NCBI GenBank assembly: GCA_025455065.1
Contig: JALONG010000026.1
Location: 1-53,881, forward strand
Length of the DNA stretch: 53,881 bases
Origin: Candidatus Kapaibacterium sp.
GTDB lineage: Bacteria > Bacteroidota > Ignavibacteria > Kapaibacteriales > UBA4661
Direction: 5' to 3'
Part shown: positions 30,288 to 36,762 of the stretch, piece after piece
Layout of the letters: each line of letters starts with the position of its first letter
How positions within the stretch are numbered: position 1 is the stretch's first letter
Program-made: the position numbers and the translations under genes
The notes under the pieces: model-generated
Databases searched by the model: none
What the model saw: only the letters and a program-made list of their open reading frames with translations
Told to the model about the DNA's origin: nothing

Positions 30288-32192
30288 CTACAACCGCAAA
30301 TGCTGTTCTTTTGCAAAGACGCGGAGCATATCCGCCTTTGTTACTACACCTTGCAACAGACCTTTGGCAACAATCGGCAAACAGGAAATGTTGAAACGCT
30401 CCATTTGGCTGTATGCTTCACGAATACTTGTATCGGGGCTAATGCTGATGACGTTTGTCTGCATTACATCGGCAGCCACAGGAACCGGCACATCGGCAGA
30501 GCGCGAGACGGTAAGAAACCGCAGAATATCTGTGTAGGAGATAATTCCTTGCAGTTCTCCGGCATCATTTTCAACCGGGACATGGCGAATGTGATTCCAC
30601 GTCATTAAGTTCACGACAAAATCTACTACATCGTGAGTACGAACCGTTAGGAGATCTTTGGTCATGATTTCTTCAACGGTCTCCAGCAGTACGTCTTGAT
30701 GCGGTTGTTCATTCAACCGAGCAAGTTCCCATGTGTGGACGGGTGTGCCGTGTTGCTGACGGGAAAGCATTGCCGCGGTCAATGCGCGGTGTTGTTGTTC
30801 ACAGGTGCCTTCATTGTGCATAGCGCTCAAAGATTCCAACGCCCAAAGAGCGCCATTTTGCTTGCGTTCTACTCGTTCTTGCAAAACGCCTAAATAACGT
30901 TCTATATCGCTGCCATCAATGTTTACGCTACGCAAACCTGCTTCTGCAAGCGGGAGAAGGTGGGACGTGATGAGGTCGGGGGCTGGGATAAGGGTGTTGT
31001 TGAGCCATGTAAATTGCGAACGCAAGCCGTGACGCGCTGCGGCGAGGAAATTATCTTTGGCGGCATCAAAGGGAAGTAAATAGCGAATATCGCCGTATTC
31101 TTGGGGCAAAGCCATCATCAAACCCAGAAAAAATGCAGCATTAGCGACTTCATCCAAAACAGTCGGACCCGAAGGAATGACGCGGTTTTCAATGCGCAAA
31201 TGCGGAACTCCGTCCATAATGCCGTAGCAAGGGCGATTCCAGCGCCAAACCGTGCCATTATGCAGGCGTAGTGCGTCTAGCTCAGGAATTTCTCCTTTGC
31301 GGAGTTTTTCGGTTGAAGTGCCATTCAATAATTTGGTGAGAATAAGCCGAAAGCGGGCGATTTCATCCCGAAAAATTTCCACAACCGAGGACTCCACCCA
31401 CGATTCACCAAAGCTGACGCGGTGCGGGTGTCGGCGTTGCAAACGTGCTTCAGAGCGCTCATCCACAGAGTGCTGAAAAAGTGCCAAGCGCGTTTCATGC
31501 CAAAGACGATGACCAAAAAGAACAGGGGAGTTTGCCGCCGCCGCAAGCACCGGTGCGGTTATCGCTTGTGCGATGTTGTACAATTGAGCAAACTCTTCTG
31601 CGCTGACTTGCAAATGCACTTGAAAGCTGGTGCAGGCTGCTTCCAAGAGCATATTGTCGTGCGTAATCGTAATTTCATCCAGCCCTTTGATGTGTGCCGA
31701 AAAACTATGTCCCCGCAGTTGTGTTAAAGCGTGATTCAGCGCGTGGTAGCGGGGTTTGGGGGTCATTGATTCCAGTGATAAATCGCGCTGCCGCATTGTG
31801 GGCAAAATCCCCGTTAAAAGCACGTGAGCGCCGCAAGAATCAGCGCTTTGTTGAGTAGAGCGCACAACGTCGTTCAACTCGTCTTCCATTTGCCGAAACG
31901 CGCTGCCTGAAAAAATACTCGGTTCTAGGTTTGCCTCAAGGTTAAATCGCCCTATTTCCGATGTTAGGCGTTCATCGGTTGTGGCTTGAAGTATTTCCGG
32001 ACCAACAAGGGCAGGGCGCATATTGGCATCAACCAAAAACATTTCCTGTTCCGCTCCGATACGGCGAATATTTTTTTCGATGCGCCCGGATTCTATCAAC
32101 ATTTCCAAGGCTTGAATGTCATCCAAGAGCGCGAGCATGAACCGTTGTTGGTCTTGCAGCTTGTGGTCAAAAGAAACTTTTTGTTCTCCCAT
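30288..32192 (-). CDS. glutamate-cysteine-ligase-like (GCS2) protein fused to two CBS domains
   Basis: A 634-residue cytoplasmic protein. Residues about 20-470 form a carboxylate-amine ligase domain of the GCS2/YbdK type: IGAEQEMFLVD near the start, FNLEANLEPSIFSG, and a later RIENRVIPSGPTVLDE, the sort of Glu- and Arg-rich ATP/metal-binding segments this fold uses. Residues about 490-630 are two CBS domains (IMTKDLLTVRTHDVVDFVVNLM...; VMQTNVISISPDTSIREAYSQM...), which usually bind adenine nucleotides and regulate the attached enzyme. It may ligate an amino acid to glutamate under energy-state control; the substrate is unknown. ATG 32192 was preferred to 32234, which would add a hydrophobic tail-like extension. 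The stop lies 82 bp before the M16 start, but a promoter sits between. Confidence 0.85.
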   Translation of the reverse strand: MGEQKVSFDHKLQDQQRFMLALLDDIQALEMLIESGRIEKNIRRIGAEQEMFLVDANMRPALVGPEILQATTDERLTSEIGRFNLEANLEPSIFSGSAFRQMEDELNDVVRSTQQSADSCGAHVLLTGILPTMRQRDLSLESMTPKPRYHALNHALTQLRGHSFSAHIKGLDEITITHDNMLLEAACTSFQVHLQVSAEEFAQLYNIAQAITAPVLAAAANSPVLFGHRLWHETRLALFQHSVDERSEARLQRRHPHRVSFGESWVESSVVEIFRDEIARFRLILTKLLNGTSTEKLRKGEIPELDALRLHNGTVWRWNRPCYGIMDGVPHLRIENRVIPSGPTVLDEVANAAFFLGLMMALPQEYGDIRYLLPFDAAKDNFLAAARHGLRSQFTWLNNTLIPAPDLITSHLLPLAEAGLRSVNIDGSDIERYLGVLQERVERKQNGALWALESLSAMHNEGTCEQQHRALTAAMLSRQQHGTPVHTWELARLNEQPHQDVLLETVEEIMTKDLLTVRTHDVVDFVVNLMTWNHIRHVPVENDAGELQGIISYTDILRFLTVSRSADVPVPVAADVMQTNVISISPDTSIREAYSQMERFNISCLPIVAKGLLQGVVTKADMLRVFAKEQHLRL

Positions 32193-32889
32193 GATTTGCA
32201 CCCTGAAGAAAAAAAATGAAACAAGTTTCCGCATTAACGATTTATGCGGTTTTTCTTCTATTTCGGATGAAAATGTACGAAAAGTTTTCTATTTTACAAA
32301 ATCTTAAAATATCCCCTGGGAAGCGCGTCCGTATTGCGTTTCGTTTGGAAGGTGGGTGAAAAACTGCTGTGAGTGGGGAAATGAATGGTGATTTTCGTTT
32401 GGAGGAGTATGCGGACGAATATACCGTGCAAGTTCGGGTTCGGTAATAGCTGCGAAGATGAGAGAAACACTACACGTCGGAGGTGAAAAAAGCGATGTAC
32501 TCATGGTTGATTGCGTGGTTGGTGGGGAATGAATGTGCGCCGTTTTGACGCACAAATTGAGCGGATATACCCTCTAAACCAAAAAGTTGAGTAAAAAGTT
32601 TCGCTCCAAGCGAAAAAAATATACTGTTATTGAATGTATTTTCAAGAGTAGATGAGTTTATAGAAATAAAGGTTTAATGCGGCTTTGAGGATGGTTGTAC
32701 CTGAAAAAAATAAAGTTCTTACTATATGAGACGACGCTATTGCAATAGAGACACAATTTGTGTACCTTTGCAACATTTATCGCTTTACCGTAATTCATTC
32801 TTTCGCGCTATTTCCTTTTCGGCATAACTTTTGCACACTCTTGTACAGTTTTTCTCGGCTTCTTCAACCATACTTTTTCGGCACAGACC
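32193..32889. other. 697-bp intergenic region between divergent genes
   Basis: A long divergent spacer between the GCS2-CBS gene and the cyclase gene. A Bacteroidota-type promoter for the cyclase lies at 32740-32770. A Pro/Ser/Thr-rich 83-codon minus-strand frame at 32304-32555 has no recognisable family and was not accepted as a gene. No RNA gene or repeat was identified in the rest. Confidence 0.5.
32740..32770 (+). promoter_or_regulatory. Bacteroidota-type promoter of the cyclase gene
   Basis: TTG (32740-32742), a 20-base spacer, and TACCTTTG (32763-32770) fit the TTTG / TAnnTTTG pattern. Transcription would start near 32777, leaving a leader of about 110 bases before the ATG at 32890. 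Confidence 0.65.
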
Positions 32890-35178
32890 ATGAACTTCAA
32901 ACTCCCTTTTGGTAACAGCTCTTCAGGAAACTCAAGCAACGCTGCGAAGTATCGTCCTCAAACAGCAAATAGCACCAGTTCTAAGCGCTTTTCGTTTCCG
33001 TTCAAAATGCCGTCATTCCGCTTTGGAAGGAAGGGCGCTTCAATGACCATTAAGTCGAAGTTGATGCTTGTGTTGATTCTGCTTTGTACCGCAACAATGC
33101 TGACGTTTGGGATAAAATCCTATCTGGATTTTCGCAATACCATTACCAAACGTTTGATGAGCAAACTCACCACAAGCCGCAATACCAAGCAGCATTACAT
33201 CAAATTTTACTTCGATAATATACGGCAACAGGTGTCGGTTTTAAGCCAAGACCGCGCATTTATTGAGGCAATGCGGGAGTTTCGTGCAGCGTACCACGCC
33301 TTAGACAGTGTTCCGCTTTCGCAAGAGGTAAGCCAAAATGTGCGCAATTATTACGAAAAAGAGTTTATACCTCGCATTGCCACTGAGGAAAACGGTAAAT
33401 CCAAAAATTATTTGTTGGATATTTTTCTTCCTCAGACTCCTTCGGCAATGTATTTGCAGCATCAGTATATTGCCGCAAATCCAAATCCTGTGGGCAAGAA
33501 AATCCTTTTGAAACAAGCACTCGACAGTTCCGCCTATTCCAATGTTCACGCGAAGTTTCATCCGATGTTTAAGGAATTTGTTGAGAAATTCAACTATTAC
33601 GACTGCTTTTTGATTGATGCTGAAACTTCCGAAATCGTCTATTCGGCATTCAAAGAGACTGATTTTACGACCAATCTTCGCAAAGGACCAAATTCGGGAA
33701 GCAGCCTTGCAAAACTCTTTGAGGATGTTGTTCATTCCAAAGAAAAAGGTTTTGTGAAAATTTTGGATTTTCTGCCCTACGAACCCAGTTATGGAGCGGC
33801 TGCCGCCTTTATCGGTGCGCCGATTTTTGATGAAGAGCAGGGGAAAATCATCGGTGTATTGGCATTTCAAATTTCGGTGGATGAAATTACTAAAATTATG
33901 ACCAGCAACCGTGATTGGAAGGGCGATGGAATGGGGCGCACAGGCGAAACATACTTAGTTGGAAGCGATTTTCTTATGCGCTCGCAATCCCGATTTTTAT
34001 TGGAAGACCAAAAGCAGTATGTTGAAACGCTGCATAAAACCAATATCCCCGTGAATGTTGTTGATAAAATTAACCGTTTTGGAACAACCATTTTGCTGCA
34101 ACAAGTAAAAACCGAAGCAACAATTGAAGCACAGGCGGGGCGCTCTGAAACCCGCATGATTACGGATTATCGTAACGAAGAAGTGTTGTCGTCCTTTGCT
34201 CCGCTTCAAATTCCCGATTTACAGTGGGTTATTGTCTCGGAAATGGACATGGCAGAAGCATTTGAGCCGGTGCGAGAGTATGAGCGCTCTTTATTAGTTT
34301 GGACAGCCTCAAGTATCGTGGTTGCAACACTTATCGCATTGATTGTTGCAAATACTTTAACAAAACCCATTAACGCATTGACTTTTAATGCTCAACGGAT
34401 TAGTGAAGGAACAATGTCGGGCTTGAAAAAAGTGCGCAGCGGTGATGAATTTGAAAAACTTTCGCAGGCGTTTGAAACGATGGTGCAAAGTTTGCAGGCA
34501 CAGCGCGAACTTGTCGAATTGCAAAACAAAGATTTTGAGCGGCTTCTTTTCGGTGTTTTTCCTGAGCCTGTTGCAGAGCGTTTGGAGAAAAACGAACGGT
34601 ATTTTGTCGAGAATGTTCCGTCGGTAAGTATCGTCGTTACTGATGTTGTAGGCTTTACGAAAGTTATGCAAACTATCGGTGCAGAAAAAGCGGTTGATAT
34701 TTTGAATGATTTGTTGGTCGCGTTTGATGAAACCGCAGCACGGCATGGTATTGACCGTATAAAAACCATAGGAGACACGTATTTTGGTGCTTCAGGACTA
34801 TTTTCACCGCAAATTGACCACGCAATTCACGCTCTGGAATTTGCAACCGAAGTGCGCAATGTTGTTCAGCGTGTTGGTGCGGAACGTGGCGTAACGATTG
34901 ACTTGGCGGCAGGTATTCACTGCGGCGATGTTACGTCGTATTTGATTGGAAAGCGTAAAATAAACTTCGATGTGGTCGGTGAAACGGTGATGATTGCGAA
35001 AACGCTCTGCGATGTCGCATCGCAAAATCACGGCGGCGTGGTGATTTCGCAGTCAGTATATGATTTAACGCAAGGTTTGTACGAGTTTTCCAACGGTTCA
35101 CCGCTTAATTACGCCGGAAGATTGATGATTCCGACGTGGACGTATGATAATTCCAAAATGTTGAACGGAAGGTCGTAA
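32890..35178 (+). CDS. membrane sensor with HAMP and class III nucleotide cyclase domain (catalytically atypical)
   Basis: A 762-residue receptor: Ser/Asn-rich N-tail (1-50), first helix (about 57-76), large periplasmic sensor of dCache type (about 77-470; GMGRTGETYLVGSD...MRSQSRF is characteristic), second helix (about 475-495), HAMP (about 495-550), a short coil and a class III cyclase domain (about 575-740). Metal-site Asp residues are present (TDVVGFT; IGDTYFG), as are the adenine-selecting Lys (IKTIGD) and Asp (FDVVGE). However, the usual transition-state Asn and Arg of the V-N-x-A-x-R motif are replaced by M701 and T705 (ETVMIAKTL). Activity may be altered or lost. The next gene encodes a cyclic-nucleotide-binding channel, 69 bp downstream on the same strand. 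ATG 33043 (MTIKSKL) is a possible shorter start. Confidence 0.9.
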   Translation: MNFKLPFGNSSSGNSSNAAKYRPQTANSTSSKRFSFPFKMPSFRFGRKGASMTIKSKLMLVLILLCTATMLTFGIKSYLDFRNTITKRLMSKLTTSRNTKQHYIKFYFDNIRQQVSVLSQDRAFIEAMREFRAAYHALDSVPLSQEVSQNVRNYYEKEFIPRIATEENGKSKNYLLDIFLPQTPSAMYLQHQYIAANPNPVGKKILLKQALDSSAYSNVHAKFHPMFKEFVEKFNYYDCFLIDAETSEIVYSAFKETDFTTNLRKGPNSGSSLAKLFEDVVHSKEKGFVKILDFLPYEPSYGAAAAFIGAPIFDEEQGKIIGVLAFQISVDEITKIMTSNRDWKGDGMGRTGETYLVGSDFLMRSQSRFLLEDQKQYVETLHKTNIPVNVVDKINRFGTTILLQQVKTEATIEAQAGRSETRMITDYRNEEVLSSFAPLQIPDLQWVIVSEMDMAEAFEPVREYERSLLVWTASSIVVATLIALIVANTLTKPINALTFNAQRISEGTMSGLKKVRSGDEFEKLSQAFETMVQSLQAQRELVELQNKDFERLLFGVFPEPVAERLEKNERYFVENVPSVSIVVTDVVGFTKVMQTIGAEKAVDILNDLLVAFDETAARHGIDRIKTIGDTYFGASGLFSPQIDHAIHALEFATEVRNVVQRVGAERGVTIDLAAGIHCGDVTSYLIGKRKINFDVVGETVMIAKTLCDVASQNHGGVVISQSVYDLTQGLYEFSNGSPLNYAGRLMIPTWTYDNSKMLNGRS

Positions 35179-35247
35179 ACTGATACAGAAAAAGGTTTTA
35201 GCGCTCTGTTTTTTCTTCATTCCTTCTCAATCTACCGAAACGTTGTT

Positions 35248-36762
35248 ATGACGAATGAACTTTTACTTTGGGTGGTCATTATCGGCGTGGGATTTCCCGC
35301 TTTGATTGTGGCTCTGACGGAAATGCGTTCCCGTATCACGCAGGAAAGCGCGACGCAGTTTCTTCGTTTGACGGTCAATACACTTGTTCCGTTGCTGGCG
35401 TTATGGGCTTTGGTGGAGAAAGTTTTCGGCGTACCGCGTGATAATACCTTCGCCAAAATTATCGAGACTTTTGCGTATGTCAGCATGATGAACATTGGTT
35501 TTTTGGGCTTAAATATCATCTTGTTTTCGGGGAAAGAATCAAAACGTCCATCGAAGGTATTGCTTGATTTTGTGCGGTTTGTATTCATTCTCATCGGAAC
35601 GGGTTTTGTTTTGGCATTGGTGTGGGATATTGACTTGCGCGGTGTTGTTACAACGCTTGGGGTCGGCTCAATTATCATTGGTTTTGCACTTCAAGACACA
35701 CTCGGAAGCCTTGTTTCGGGCTTGATAACCCTTATGCGTCGTCCCTTTGCGGTTGGTGATAAAGTTGTTATTGCCGATATGGAAGGTGAAGTGCAGGATA
35801 TGACGTGGAATTCCGTCGTTTTGCGTCGCCGTGATAATGCGCTGGCAATTTTGCCGCAGTCTATTGTTGCAAAACAGACAGTAGTGAATTTAACTCGTGC
35901 AACTGGCGCGGAACACACCGAAGTTTTGTTGGATTTCGCCAAAAAGCACGCACCAAACACGGTGAAACGTGTGCTTATGGCTACAGCACTCAGTACGCCT
36001 GATATACTGCACGAACCAAAGCCGACAGTGCGGGTTTACGACCATTATGATGTAAATTTACGCTATTCGGTGCGCTTTTGGTCTCCGCAAACAATTTCTC
36101 CAATGGAAGTGCGCGACCAGTTTCTATCGCGTCTTTGGTATGTGGCAAAACGCTATAATTTTGAATGTGCATTGCCAACACGCCGTGTGATTCAAACACC
36201 GCCAAACGAAGAGCCGGAATTACTTTCGTATCGTTCCGAATTAGCTTCTGTGCCGTTGTTTTTCAAAATGGGAACGGATGTGCTGGAAATAGTTGCTAAT
36301 GGCGCTATGCTTCACACCTACGGTGCAGGGGAGGCGCTTATCCGCGAAGGTGAGATGGTGCGGGCGTTGCACGTGATTGTGCAGGGTGAAGGTGTTGCTA
36401 CGGCTTCGGATGAAAAAGGGCGCAAACATGACGTATTTACTTTGCGTTCAGGCGATTTTTGCGGAGAAGCATCGCTGTTTTCTGCTCGCCCAAGCCCATT
36501 TACCATAACCGCAACCCACGATATTACGGCGGTCTTGCTTAATAAACAAATGCTGGACACGCTGGTTGCAAAGGAAACTGCGTTGGTAAAAGAAATCGGG
36601 CGTGTTATCTCGGAACGGCGAGCAAAAATGAAGGAAGTGCTTGGTATTTCTGACCAATCTTCTGCCGTTCCCAGCCAAGTCGCGGAATCCTTCCGCTCTC
36701 AGGCACAAATACAAGCACAGGCTCAAGCTATCTTACTCGAAACCTTACAACCAAAACGTTAA
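35248..36762 (+). CDS. MscS-family channel with C-terminal cyclic-nucleotide-binding domain
   Basis: A 504-residue membrane channel. Several N-terminal helices lead to the MscS pore and beta domain (about residues 130-230; GVGSIIIGFALQDTLGSLVSGLITLMRRPFAVGDKVVIADMEGEV), then a soluble region and a cNMP-binding domain (about 350-470) with the phosphate-binding cassette GDFCGEASLFSARPSPFTITA, which keeps the Gly-Glu and Arg that hold cyclic nucleotides. This is the bacterial cyclic-nucleotide-gated (bCNG) MscS subfamily. Its position just after a cyclase gene suggests it responds to that enzyme's product, or that both are controlled together. A Gln/Ala-rich C-tail ends the protein. What ion or stress it handles is not evident. 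Confidence 0.92.
   Translation: MTNELLLWVVIIGVGFPALIVALTEMRSRITQESATQFLRLTVNTLVPLLALWALVEKVFGVPRDNTFAKIIETFAYVSMMNIGFLGLNIILFSGKESKRPSKVLLDFVRFVFILIGTGFVLALVWDIDLRGVVTTLGVGSIIIGFALQDTLGSLVSGLITLMRRPFAVGDKVVIADMEGEVQDMTWNSVVLRRRDNALAILPQSIVAKQTVVNLTRATGAEHTEVLLDFAKKHAPNTVKRVLMATALSTPDILHEPKPTVRVYDHYDVNLRYSVRFWSPQTISPMEVRDQFLSRLWYVAKRYNFECALPTRRVIQTPPNEEPELLSYRSELASVPLFFKMGTDVLEIVANGAMLHTYGAGEALIREGEMVRALHVIVQGEGVATASDEKGRKHDVFTLRSGDFCGEASLFSARPSPFTITATHDITAVLLNKQMLDTLVAKETALVKEIGRVISERRAKMKEVLGISDQSSAVPSQVAESFRSQAQIQAQAQAILLETLQPKR

Follow-up and report, generated by a model that had tools for sequence, protein, structure and literature searches.

Locus and domain architecture

The window, that is, the whole stretch of 53,881 nucleotides that was analysed, carries a gene for a receptor-like protein of 762 aa (32890..35178, + strand) followed on the same strand, 69 bp downstream, by a gene for a 504-aa MscS-family channel with a C-terminal cyclic-nucleotide-binding (CNB) domain (35248..36762); the initial annotation had described a sensor cyclase next to such a channel. 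The open reading frame of the receptor gave Pfam matches to dCache_1 (sub-threshold), HAMP and Guanylate_cyc. Its domain order is TM1, a periplasmic sensor with a dCache-like part, TM2, a HAMP domain and a degenerate class III cyclase domain, the transmembrane segments and topology being taken from a reading of the sequence. The dCache_1-like part covers residues 235-450 (33592..34239, + strand) and scored 41.3 bits, under the curated cut-off of 45, while the HAMP domain (residues 486-537; 34345..34500, + strand) scored 30.6 bits at a cut-off of 25. Across the six orthologs, the window's own sequence included, mean pairwise identity was 75.5% for sensor residues 76-465 and 81.3% for the HAMP domain.

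The cyclase domain spans residues 574-750 (34609..35139, + strand; Pfam Guanylate_cyc E 1.2e-29). A scan of the organism's own genome returned identical coordinates and 107 bits for this domain, compared with 183-235 bits for 24 canonical paralogs. Its membership of class III is assigned by sequence only, with matches to adenylyl cyclases of the PDB down to E 1.1e-32; an AlphaFold2 model built from six sequences reached a pLDDT of only 32.6 and was set aside. In domain order, catalytic family, metal-binding Asp residues and base-site Lys/Asp, the receptor resembles the sensor-HAMP-cyclase membrane adenylyl and guanylyl cyclases. What sets it apart from these membrane class III cyclases is the loss, in 6/6 orthologs, of four residues: the Asn and Arg of the transition state and the Arg and Lys that bind the triphosphate.

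The intergenic gap (35179..35247, + strand) contains no listed terminator-like site of the + strand, and a promoter-like match (9/12) ends at 35151; in the scan, both types of site were near background in this region. In the other five genomes, for which we selected the start codons ourselves, the gap measures 49-172 bp. Receptor and channel genes adjoin on one strand in all six cyclase-bearing genomes, which belong to two genera, and both genes are absent from three genomes of the family. In a seventh genome the channel gene is truncated at a contig edge. No ortholog was detected in 51 genomes of other families, and a search of a 395-genome sample of the phylum at E 1e-40 gave two matches, one being the own genome and the other a genome of its genus; no more than four candidates were scored among the matches listed.

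Twelve proteins of the window were checked against the five remaining loci. The pair alone recurred, except that L088 holds a 60-residue stretch of one further protein. An all-against-all comparison of open reading frames found no third gene common to the six loci; three of the compared contigs are just 7-9 kb long and the genomes are drafts. Two genomes (G007 and G001) also have the next downstream gene in common, a TPR histidine kinase that is 85% identical, and the further cross-matches among loci are kinase-like proteins of low identity. The proposal that the two genes form a receptor-to-channel pair conserved together is thus supported by their adjacency, by the lack of another common neighbour and by their joint absence from three family members. 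Few independent events underlie this co-inheritance. Among 10 distant MscS-CNB loci with flanks of up to 6 kb, a cyclase lies near the channel gene in one, L097 of the Acidobacteriota. This CHASE2 cyclase has both Asn and Arg; a gene for an M48 peptidase lies between it and the MscS-CNB gene, which carries the canonical Arg. Since this is a single case, we draw no conclusion on such neighbourhoods outside the Kapabacteria.

Active site and evolution of the cyclase domain

The active-site columns were compared among the six orthologs and the remaining 25 class III domains of the own genome. The transition-state Asn, present in 25/25 of these domains, is replaced by M701 (34990..34992, + strand; M,M,M,I,Q,Q in the orthologs), and the transition-state Arg, present in 24/25, by T705 (35002..35004, + strand; T,T,A,A,D,D). 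None of the six orthologs carries either residue, so the two substitutions, which the initial annotation had already pointed out, are not sequencing errors. The loss extends further than that annotation had noticed. The triphosphate-binding Arg, found in all 25 other domains, is replaced by A673 (34906..34908, + strand; A,A,S,S,A,A), at a position that we take to be R484 of mammalian AC C1. Likewise, the phosphate-binding Lys (22/25) is replaced by A742 (35113..35115, + strand; A,A,A,A,S,N), presumably equivalent to K1065 of AC2. Both residues are missing from 6/6 orthologs. Two residues past A742, all six orthologs have an Arg (R744), in a column that holds Lys in 21 of the 25 paralogs.

The metal-binding and base-selecting residues were retained, in agreement with the initial annotation. 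The metal-binding Asp pair is formed by D585 and D629, the former being Glu in one of six orthologs, and the adenine-selecting residues K625 and D694 occur in all six. Ma1120, which occurs naturally and carries Ala in place of the Asn, is an active class III cyclase (PMC4215837); this activity and the retained metal and base residues count against inactivity of the domain.

Where Asn and Arg would stand, the substitutes vary between clades (M/I/Q and T/A/D), which fits positions without a catalytic job. Together with the four lost residues, this pattern suggests that the domain probably no longer catalyses cyclic-nucleotide formation. Nevertheless, the domain is not decaying: strong purifying selection is indicated by three sister pairs, whose dN/dS values are 0.048, 0.030 and 0.045. 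The orthologs form one clade (support 100/100) on a very long stem of 4.41 changes per column, and the short end branches within it measure 0.011-0.11, against a tree-wide median end branch of 0.41.

Loss of the active site was also considered as a specific signature, and this idea was dropped. Conservation in 23 or all 24 of the canonical paralogs was seen for 45 columns, of which 17 are lost and 17 kept in all six orthologs; by our own count the lost ones comprise 3/7 catalytic and 14/38 other columns, so that catalytic positions are not enriched, which speaks against the pseudo-cyclase reading. Similarly, Pycsar was rejected as a candidate system, as the PADLOC PycC model gave 22.6 bits for the cyclase and matches to the CNB region of the channel gave just 18-19 bits.

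The channel and its CNB domain

The channel possesses the MscS pore and beta domain (Pfam MS_channel_2nd, PF00924, 59.3 bits) and a C-terminal CNB domain at residues 356-442 (36313..36573, + strand; cNMP_binding, PF00027, 53.3 bits). Foldseek matched the channel model to PKA-R structures and to MscS (E 9.7e-15), the latter with a TM-score over the query of just 0.28, as the model is made up of several domains. The bCNG channels, reportedly members of the MscS superfamily with a C-terminal CNB, share this order of MscS pore, beta domain and CNB domain, and likewise have the cassette Glu.

The phosphate-binding cassette (G406-T419; 36463..36504, + strand) has been rewritten, however, and the "seemingly complete cNMP pocket" of the initial annotation did not hold up. 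The Glu that serves the ribose is kept (E407; 7/7 channel orthologs), but the Arg for the cyclic phosphate is in place in none of the seven: the R209-equivalent is S416 in the window, and among the seven it is Ser in five and Cys in two. The A211-equivalent, Ala in 10/10 distant homologs, is F418, with Phe or Tyr in all seven orthologs. An extra Arg, R414, stands two residues ahead of the canonical place in 7/7 orthologs and in 0/10 distant homologs. These three changes set the channel apart from the bCNG channels. As the phosphate-binding Arg is lost and an aromatic residue has entered the cassette, the channel is not expected to show the customary response to cAMP or cGMP, and its CNB domain, judged by these residues, probably does not bind cyclic nucleotides.

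The cassette Arg is also missing in 4/10 distant MscS-CNB homologs and, by our reading of the alignment, in 14/18 other CNB domains of the own genome. This frequent absence elsewhere counts against its loss as a telling sign.

The Foldseek matches also brought up the nucleoside cassette of trypanosomatid PKA regulatory subunits. As in the channel described here, a polar residue replaces the cassette Arg in these proteins, which are cAMP-independent (PMC10959531). They have a Glu at the A202 position, whereas all seven channel orthologs have Ser, and the nucleoside cassette was consequently rejected as a description of the channel.

A possible receptor-to-channel module

We favour, and hold to be somewhat probable, the reading that the pair arose from a cyclic-nucleotide circuit and forms a receptor-to-channel module, in which a pseudo-cyclase is the output of the receptor and controls the channel either through contact or through some ligand that is neither cAMP nor cGMP. 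The periplasmic domain would sense an outside signal, which would travel via the HAMP domain to a class III cyclase domain presumably incapable of cyclic-nucleotide synthesis. This domain would pass the signal on through its conformation and, with Asp585, Asp629, Lys625 and Asp694 kept, may have retained the binding of metal or of a purine. The receptor output would then act on the adjoining MscS channel, most likely through direct contact of the two cytoplasmic domains or through a ligand without a cyclic phosphate. The residue losses, the synteny and co-inheritance, the purifying selection and the single clade were observed; the physical coupling and the direction of control from receptor to channel, like the lack of catalysis and of cyclic-nucleotide binding, are inferred. 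More tentatively, the messenger may have been lost on both sides, so that the pseudo-cyclase gates the CNB-bearing MscS channel by direct contact, with no second messenger, and the outside signal opens or closes the pore; we regard this specific version as possible but doubtful.

It is fairly unlikely that the cyclase is still active with an altered site, forming a nucleotide product slowly or of an unusual kind to which the rewritten CNB is matched. In its favour, the metal Asp pair is in place, with Glu for one Asp in a single ortholog, as are Lys625 and Asp694; both partners are changed in all six genomes showing both, the invariant Arg414 could serve a moved phosphate, and Ma1120 (PMC4215837) is an active enzyme with Ala at the Asn position. 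Here, however, the transition-state Arg and both triphosphate clamps have gone as well, the PADLOC pyrimidine cyclase model scores 22.6 bits only, and the substitutes for Asn and Arg drift although a new active site should be conserved. Of the three options raised by the initial annotation, an unusual product or slow catalysis would have been expected to leave a conserved substitute for Asn/Arg, and none was seen; the third, a pseudoenzyme, is the best supported because four catalytic residues are lost in 6/6 orthologs, the Asn and Arg substitutes are unconserved and purifying selection is strong. A ligand relay, in which pseudo-cyclase and CNB domain both sense a cellular purine nucleotide or nucleoside, is unlikely. 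The retained base-site Lys/Asp and CNB Glu would suit it, as would trypanosomatid PKA, which has a polar residue at the same Arg and binds nucleosides (PMC10959531), but the marker Glu of the nucleoside cassette is Ser in all seven channels.

The C1 half of mammalian adenylyl cyclase keeps the metal Asp, has lost Asn and Arg, and supplies the triphosphate Arg. The first two features are shared by the cyclase of the window, which could accordingly be imagined to pair with one of the 24 canonical cyclases of its genome and to donate the metal site to the heterodimer; in many class III cyclases that are heterodimers, some catalytic residues are missing from the halves (PMC8815786). Yet the triphosphate Arg required of C1 is Ala or Ser in all six orthologs, so that the C1-like combination of Asp pair and Arg does not occur, one of them has Glu for the first metal Asp, and the conserved neighbour is a channel and no cyclase, leaving this idea weakened and highly improbable. 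Finally, the genes might be neighbours without a common function, each having drifted separately. Only two genes are involved, with gaps of up to 172 bp and no fusion seen, the independent events are few, and the draft genomes include contigs of 7-9 kb; nonetheless, adjacency in 6/6 genomes of two genera without a third common gene makes such a coincidence decidedly improbable.

Pseudo-kinases are well known, and among the matches listed in our literature search there was no class III pseudo-cyclase for which a bacterial partner was stated. Given a conserved pair whose maker and receiver of cyclic nucleotides have both changed, the rewiring of a second-messenger circuit would become testable. 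The receptor-to-channel module would also bear on the signals used by MscS-CNB channels, given that the phosphate Arg is missing in distant homologs too. Taken together, our results suggest that in one family of Kapabacteria a signalling pair has kept the parts of a cyclic-nucleotide circuit while its messenger was changed or dropped.

Distribution and surroundings of the gene pair

Contig C77 of a draft genome of 5.6 Mb, which forms the window, encodes, 69 bp apart on the forward strand, a receptor-like protein of 762 amino acids (32890-35178) with a sub-threshold dCache_1 match, a HAMP and a Guanylate_cyc domain, and a channel of 504 amino acids (35248-36762) with an MscS beta domain and a C-terminal cyclic-nucleotide-binding (CNB) domain. 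A cyclase ortholog was found in 6 of the 61 genomes searched (the five beyond the window's own are 68-81% identical to it) and a channel ortholog in 7 (56-86% for the other six). In all six genomes that carry both, the two genes are direct neighbors in the same orientation, 49-172 bp apart, confirming as recurrent the neighborhood from which the initial annotation had proposed a circuit. The channel of the seventh genome (G001) starts at a contig end, so that its cyclase cannot be judged. The named relatives with these genes (loci L088-L093), from which a Kapabacterial origin of the window is deduced, are known as metagenome-assembled genomes under the labels Candidatus Kapaibacterium or Ignavibacteria bacterium. 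Of the ten family genomes, three (99, 86, and 70% complete) lack both genes, and neither was found in any of the 51 other-family genomes searched. A search of 395 sampled genomes of the phylum with the channel profile returned, among the matches listed, only the own genome and one congener.

The flanking genes are unrelated to the pair and encode a chemotaxis receptor and, on the opposite strand, a GCS2-CBS protein; the latter (30288-32234) has two CBS stretches fused to a GCS2-type glutamate-cysteine ligase domain. When 12 window proteins were searched for at the other five loci and in two additional stretches downstream, the pair alone recurred, except for a 60-residue match of one window protein in L088. 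An all-against-all comparison of open reading frames found no third gene common to the six loci, three of the compared contigs spanning only 7-9 kb. At other loci, the pair adjoins genes for a transposase, histidine kinases, a pyridoxal enzyme, or a metallopeptidase, among others. In the close relatives G007 and G001, the next downstream gene on the channel's strand encodes a TPR histidine kinase (L090:7519-9840 and L091:1403-3766, 85% identical), and the other cross-matches between loci were kinase-like proteins of 22-56% identity. Since the pair is retained while its surroundings change, a common function of cyclase and channel is favored, albeit over few independent events.

The active site and constraint of the cyclase domain

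The own genome holds 26 class III cyclase domains, and the window domain was aligned with the other 25 (PF00211) and with five orthologs. The transition-state Asn position is M701 in the window and Asn in all 25 other domains, while the transition-state Arg position is T705 and Arg in 24 of 25. Both substitutions described in the initial annotation are thereby borne out, and metal-binding Asp585 and Asp629 as well as Lys625 and Asp694 are retained, as it had said, Asp585 being Glu in the G007 ortholog. The triphosphate-binding Arg position, which corresponds to R484 of mammalian numbering, is A673 (Arg in 25/25), and the phosphate Lys position, corresponding to K1065, is A742 (Lys in 22/25); this column assignment is consistent with an alignment to adenylyl cyclase 9. 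Across the six orthologs (window, G002, G007, G009, G006, and G005), the residues are M/M/M/I/Q/Q at the Asn, T/T/A/A/D/D at the Arg, A/A/S/S/A/A at the triphosphate Arg, and A/A/A/A/S/N at the phosphate Lys position. Elsewhere in the genome, a highly divergent class III domain (C30:84010-84462, 43 bits) on a very long tree branch has, in the alignment, Leu in place of the transition-state Arg and an Asn where the first metal ligand would stand, and five class III domains lie on one strand within ∼9 kb (C61:22371-31385).

Both transition-state residues are called essential in mammalian adenylyl cyclase by the title of a 1997 study by Yan, cited in PMC4215837. Loss of the Asn alone is no proof of inactivity, because Ma1120 of Mycobacterium avium, according to PMC4215837, is active with Ala at this position; its Arg is retained. 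The window domain lacks the Asn, the Arg, and both triphosphate ligands, the Asn and Arg substitutes differing in kind between clades, and its homodimer is likely incapable of cyclization. A role as the C1-like half of a heterodimer, a class of enzymes reviewed in PMC8815786, would need the triphosphate Arg, which this domain does not have. A survey of actinobacterial cyclases (PMC2447327) may well discuss members without catalytic residues.

As to decay, the cyclase domain is intact and under constraint, with dN/dS values of 0.048, 0.030, and 0.045 in three sister pairs. For the window and G002, pN was 0.060 in the cyclase domain vs. 0.129 in the sensor, synonymous change being saturated for sensor and HAMP. 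Mean all-pair identity of the cyclase domain was 70.1%, the lowest of six segments measured (sensor 75.5%, HAMP 81.3%). A tree built from 72 cyclase rows united the six orthologs in one clade (100/100, in a bootstrap that had not settled), whose stem measures 4.41 changes per column and whose end branches measure 0.011-0.11, the median end branch of the tree being 0.41. The long stem and short tips fit a single episode of rapid change, after which constraint set in anew. At least 23 of 24 canonical paralogs agree in each of 45 columns. All six orthologs retain 17 of these columns, some orthologs retain 11, and none retains the remaining 17. By our count, the losses comprise 3 of 7 catalytic and 14 of 38 other columns, which speaks against a simple "lost catalysis" signature; the catalytic losses count because of what these residues do, not through enrichment among lost columns.

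The CNB domain of the channel

In a Foldseek search, the channel model (mean pLDDT 71.8) matched MscS structures and CNB domains of PKA regulatory subunits. The seemingly complete cNMP pocket read in the initial annotation is not right, since the phosphate-binding cassette (G406-T419) is rewritten in all seven channel orthologs. Glu407 is retained, but the canonical Arg is replaced by Ser (five orthologs) or Cys (two), an Ala shared by 10/10 distant MscS-CNB homologs gives way to Phe or Tyr, and an invariant Arg stands two residues ahead of the canonical place, where 0/10 distant homologs have one. Loss of the cassette Arg alone is not rare, because it is missing in 4 of 10 distant homologs (Thr or Ala; Arg in six) and, by our reading of the alignment, in 14 of 18 other CNB domains of the genome. 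The nearest precedent for its meaning is trypanosomatid PKA, which, according to PMC10959531, has polar residues instead and answers to nucleosides. A cassette of that type is ruled out: the same paper gives Glu at the A202 position, where the channel has Ser.

Two adjoining small proteins of the window's genome (C80:70398-71094) have one CNB domain each, both with the cassette Arg; such twins (open frames of 124-163 amino acids) occur next to each other in eight family genomes, the other seven at G002:C53, G003:C66, G004:C19, G005:C56, G006:C113, G007:C51, and G009:C186. In an acidobacterial locus (L097:2429-7092), three consecutive genes on one strand encode a CHASE2 cyclase with Asn and Arg, an M48 peptidase, and an MscS-CNB channel whose cassette has the canonical Arg.

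A putative receptor-to-channel coupling

As the most likely mechanism, we propose that the periplasmic domain would read an outside signal and relay it via HAMP. The cyclase domain would then, instead of making a messenger, change its conformation, possibly while binding metal or purine, and so act on the CNB domain of the channel. As cyclase and CNB domain both look unsuited to cAMP, contact between both cytoplasmic domains would be the simplest route, the alternative being a ligand without cyclic phosphate. Among the matches listed for open-access literature on MscS with CNB domains, class III cyclases without catalytic residues, pseudo-cyclases, and cyclase/MscS links, none described such a pair; Pycsar is the subject of PMC11224242. 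The alteration of cyclase and channel is genuine and conserved and extends beyond the first description, and, as far as searched, the doubly altered pair is confined to one Kapabacteria family.
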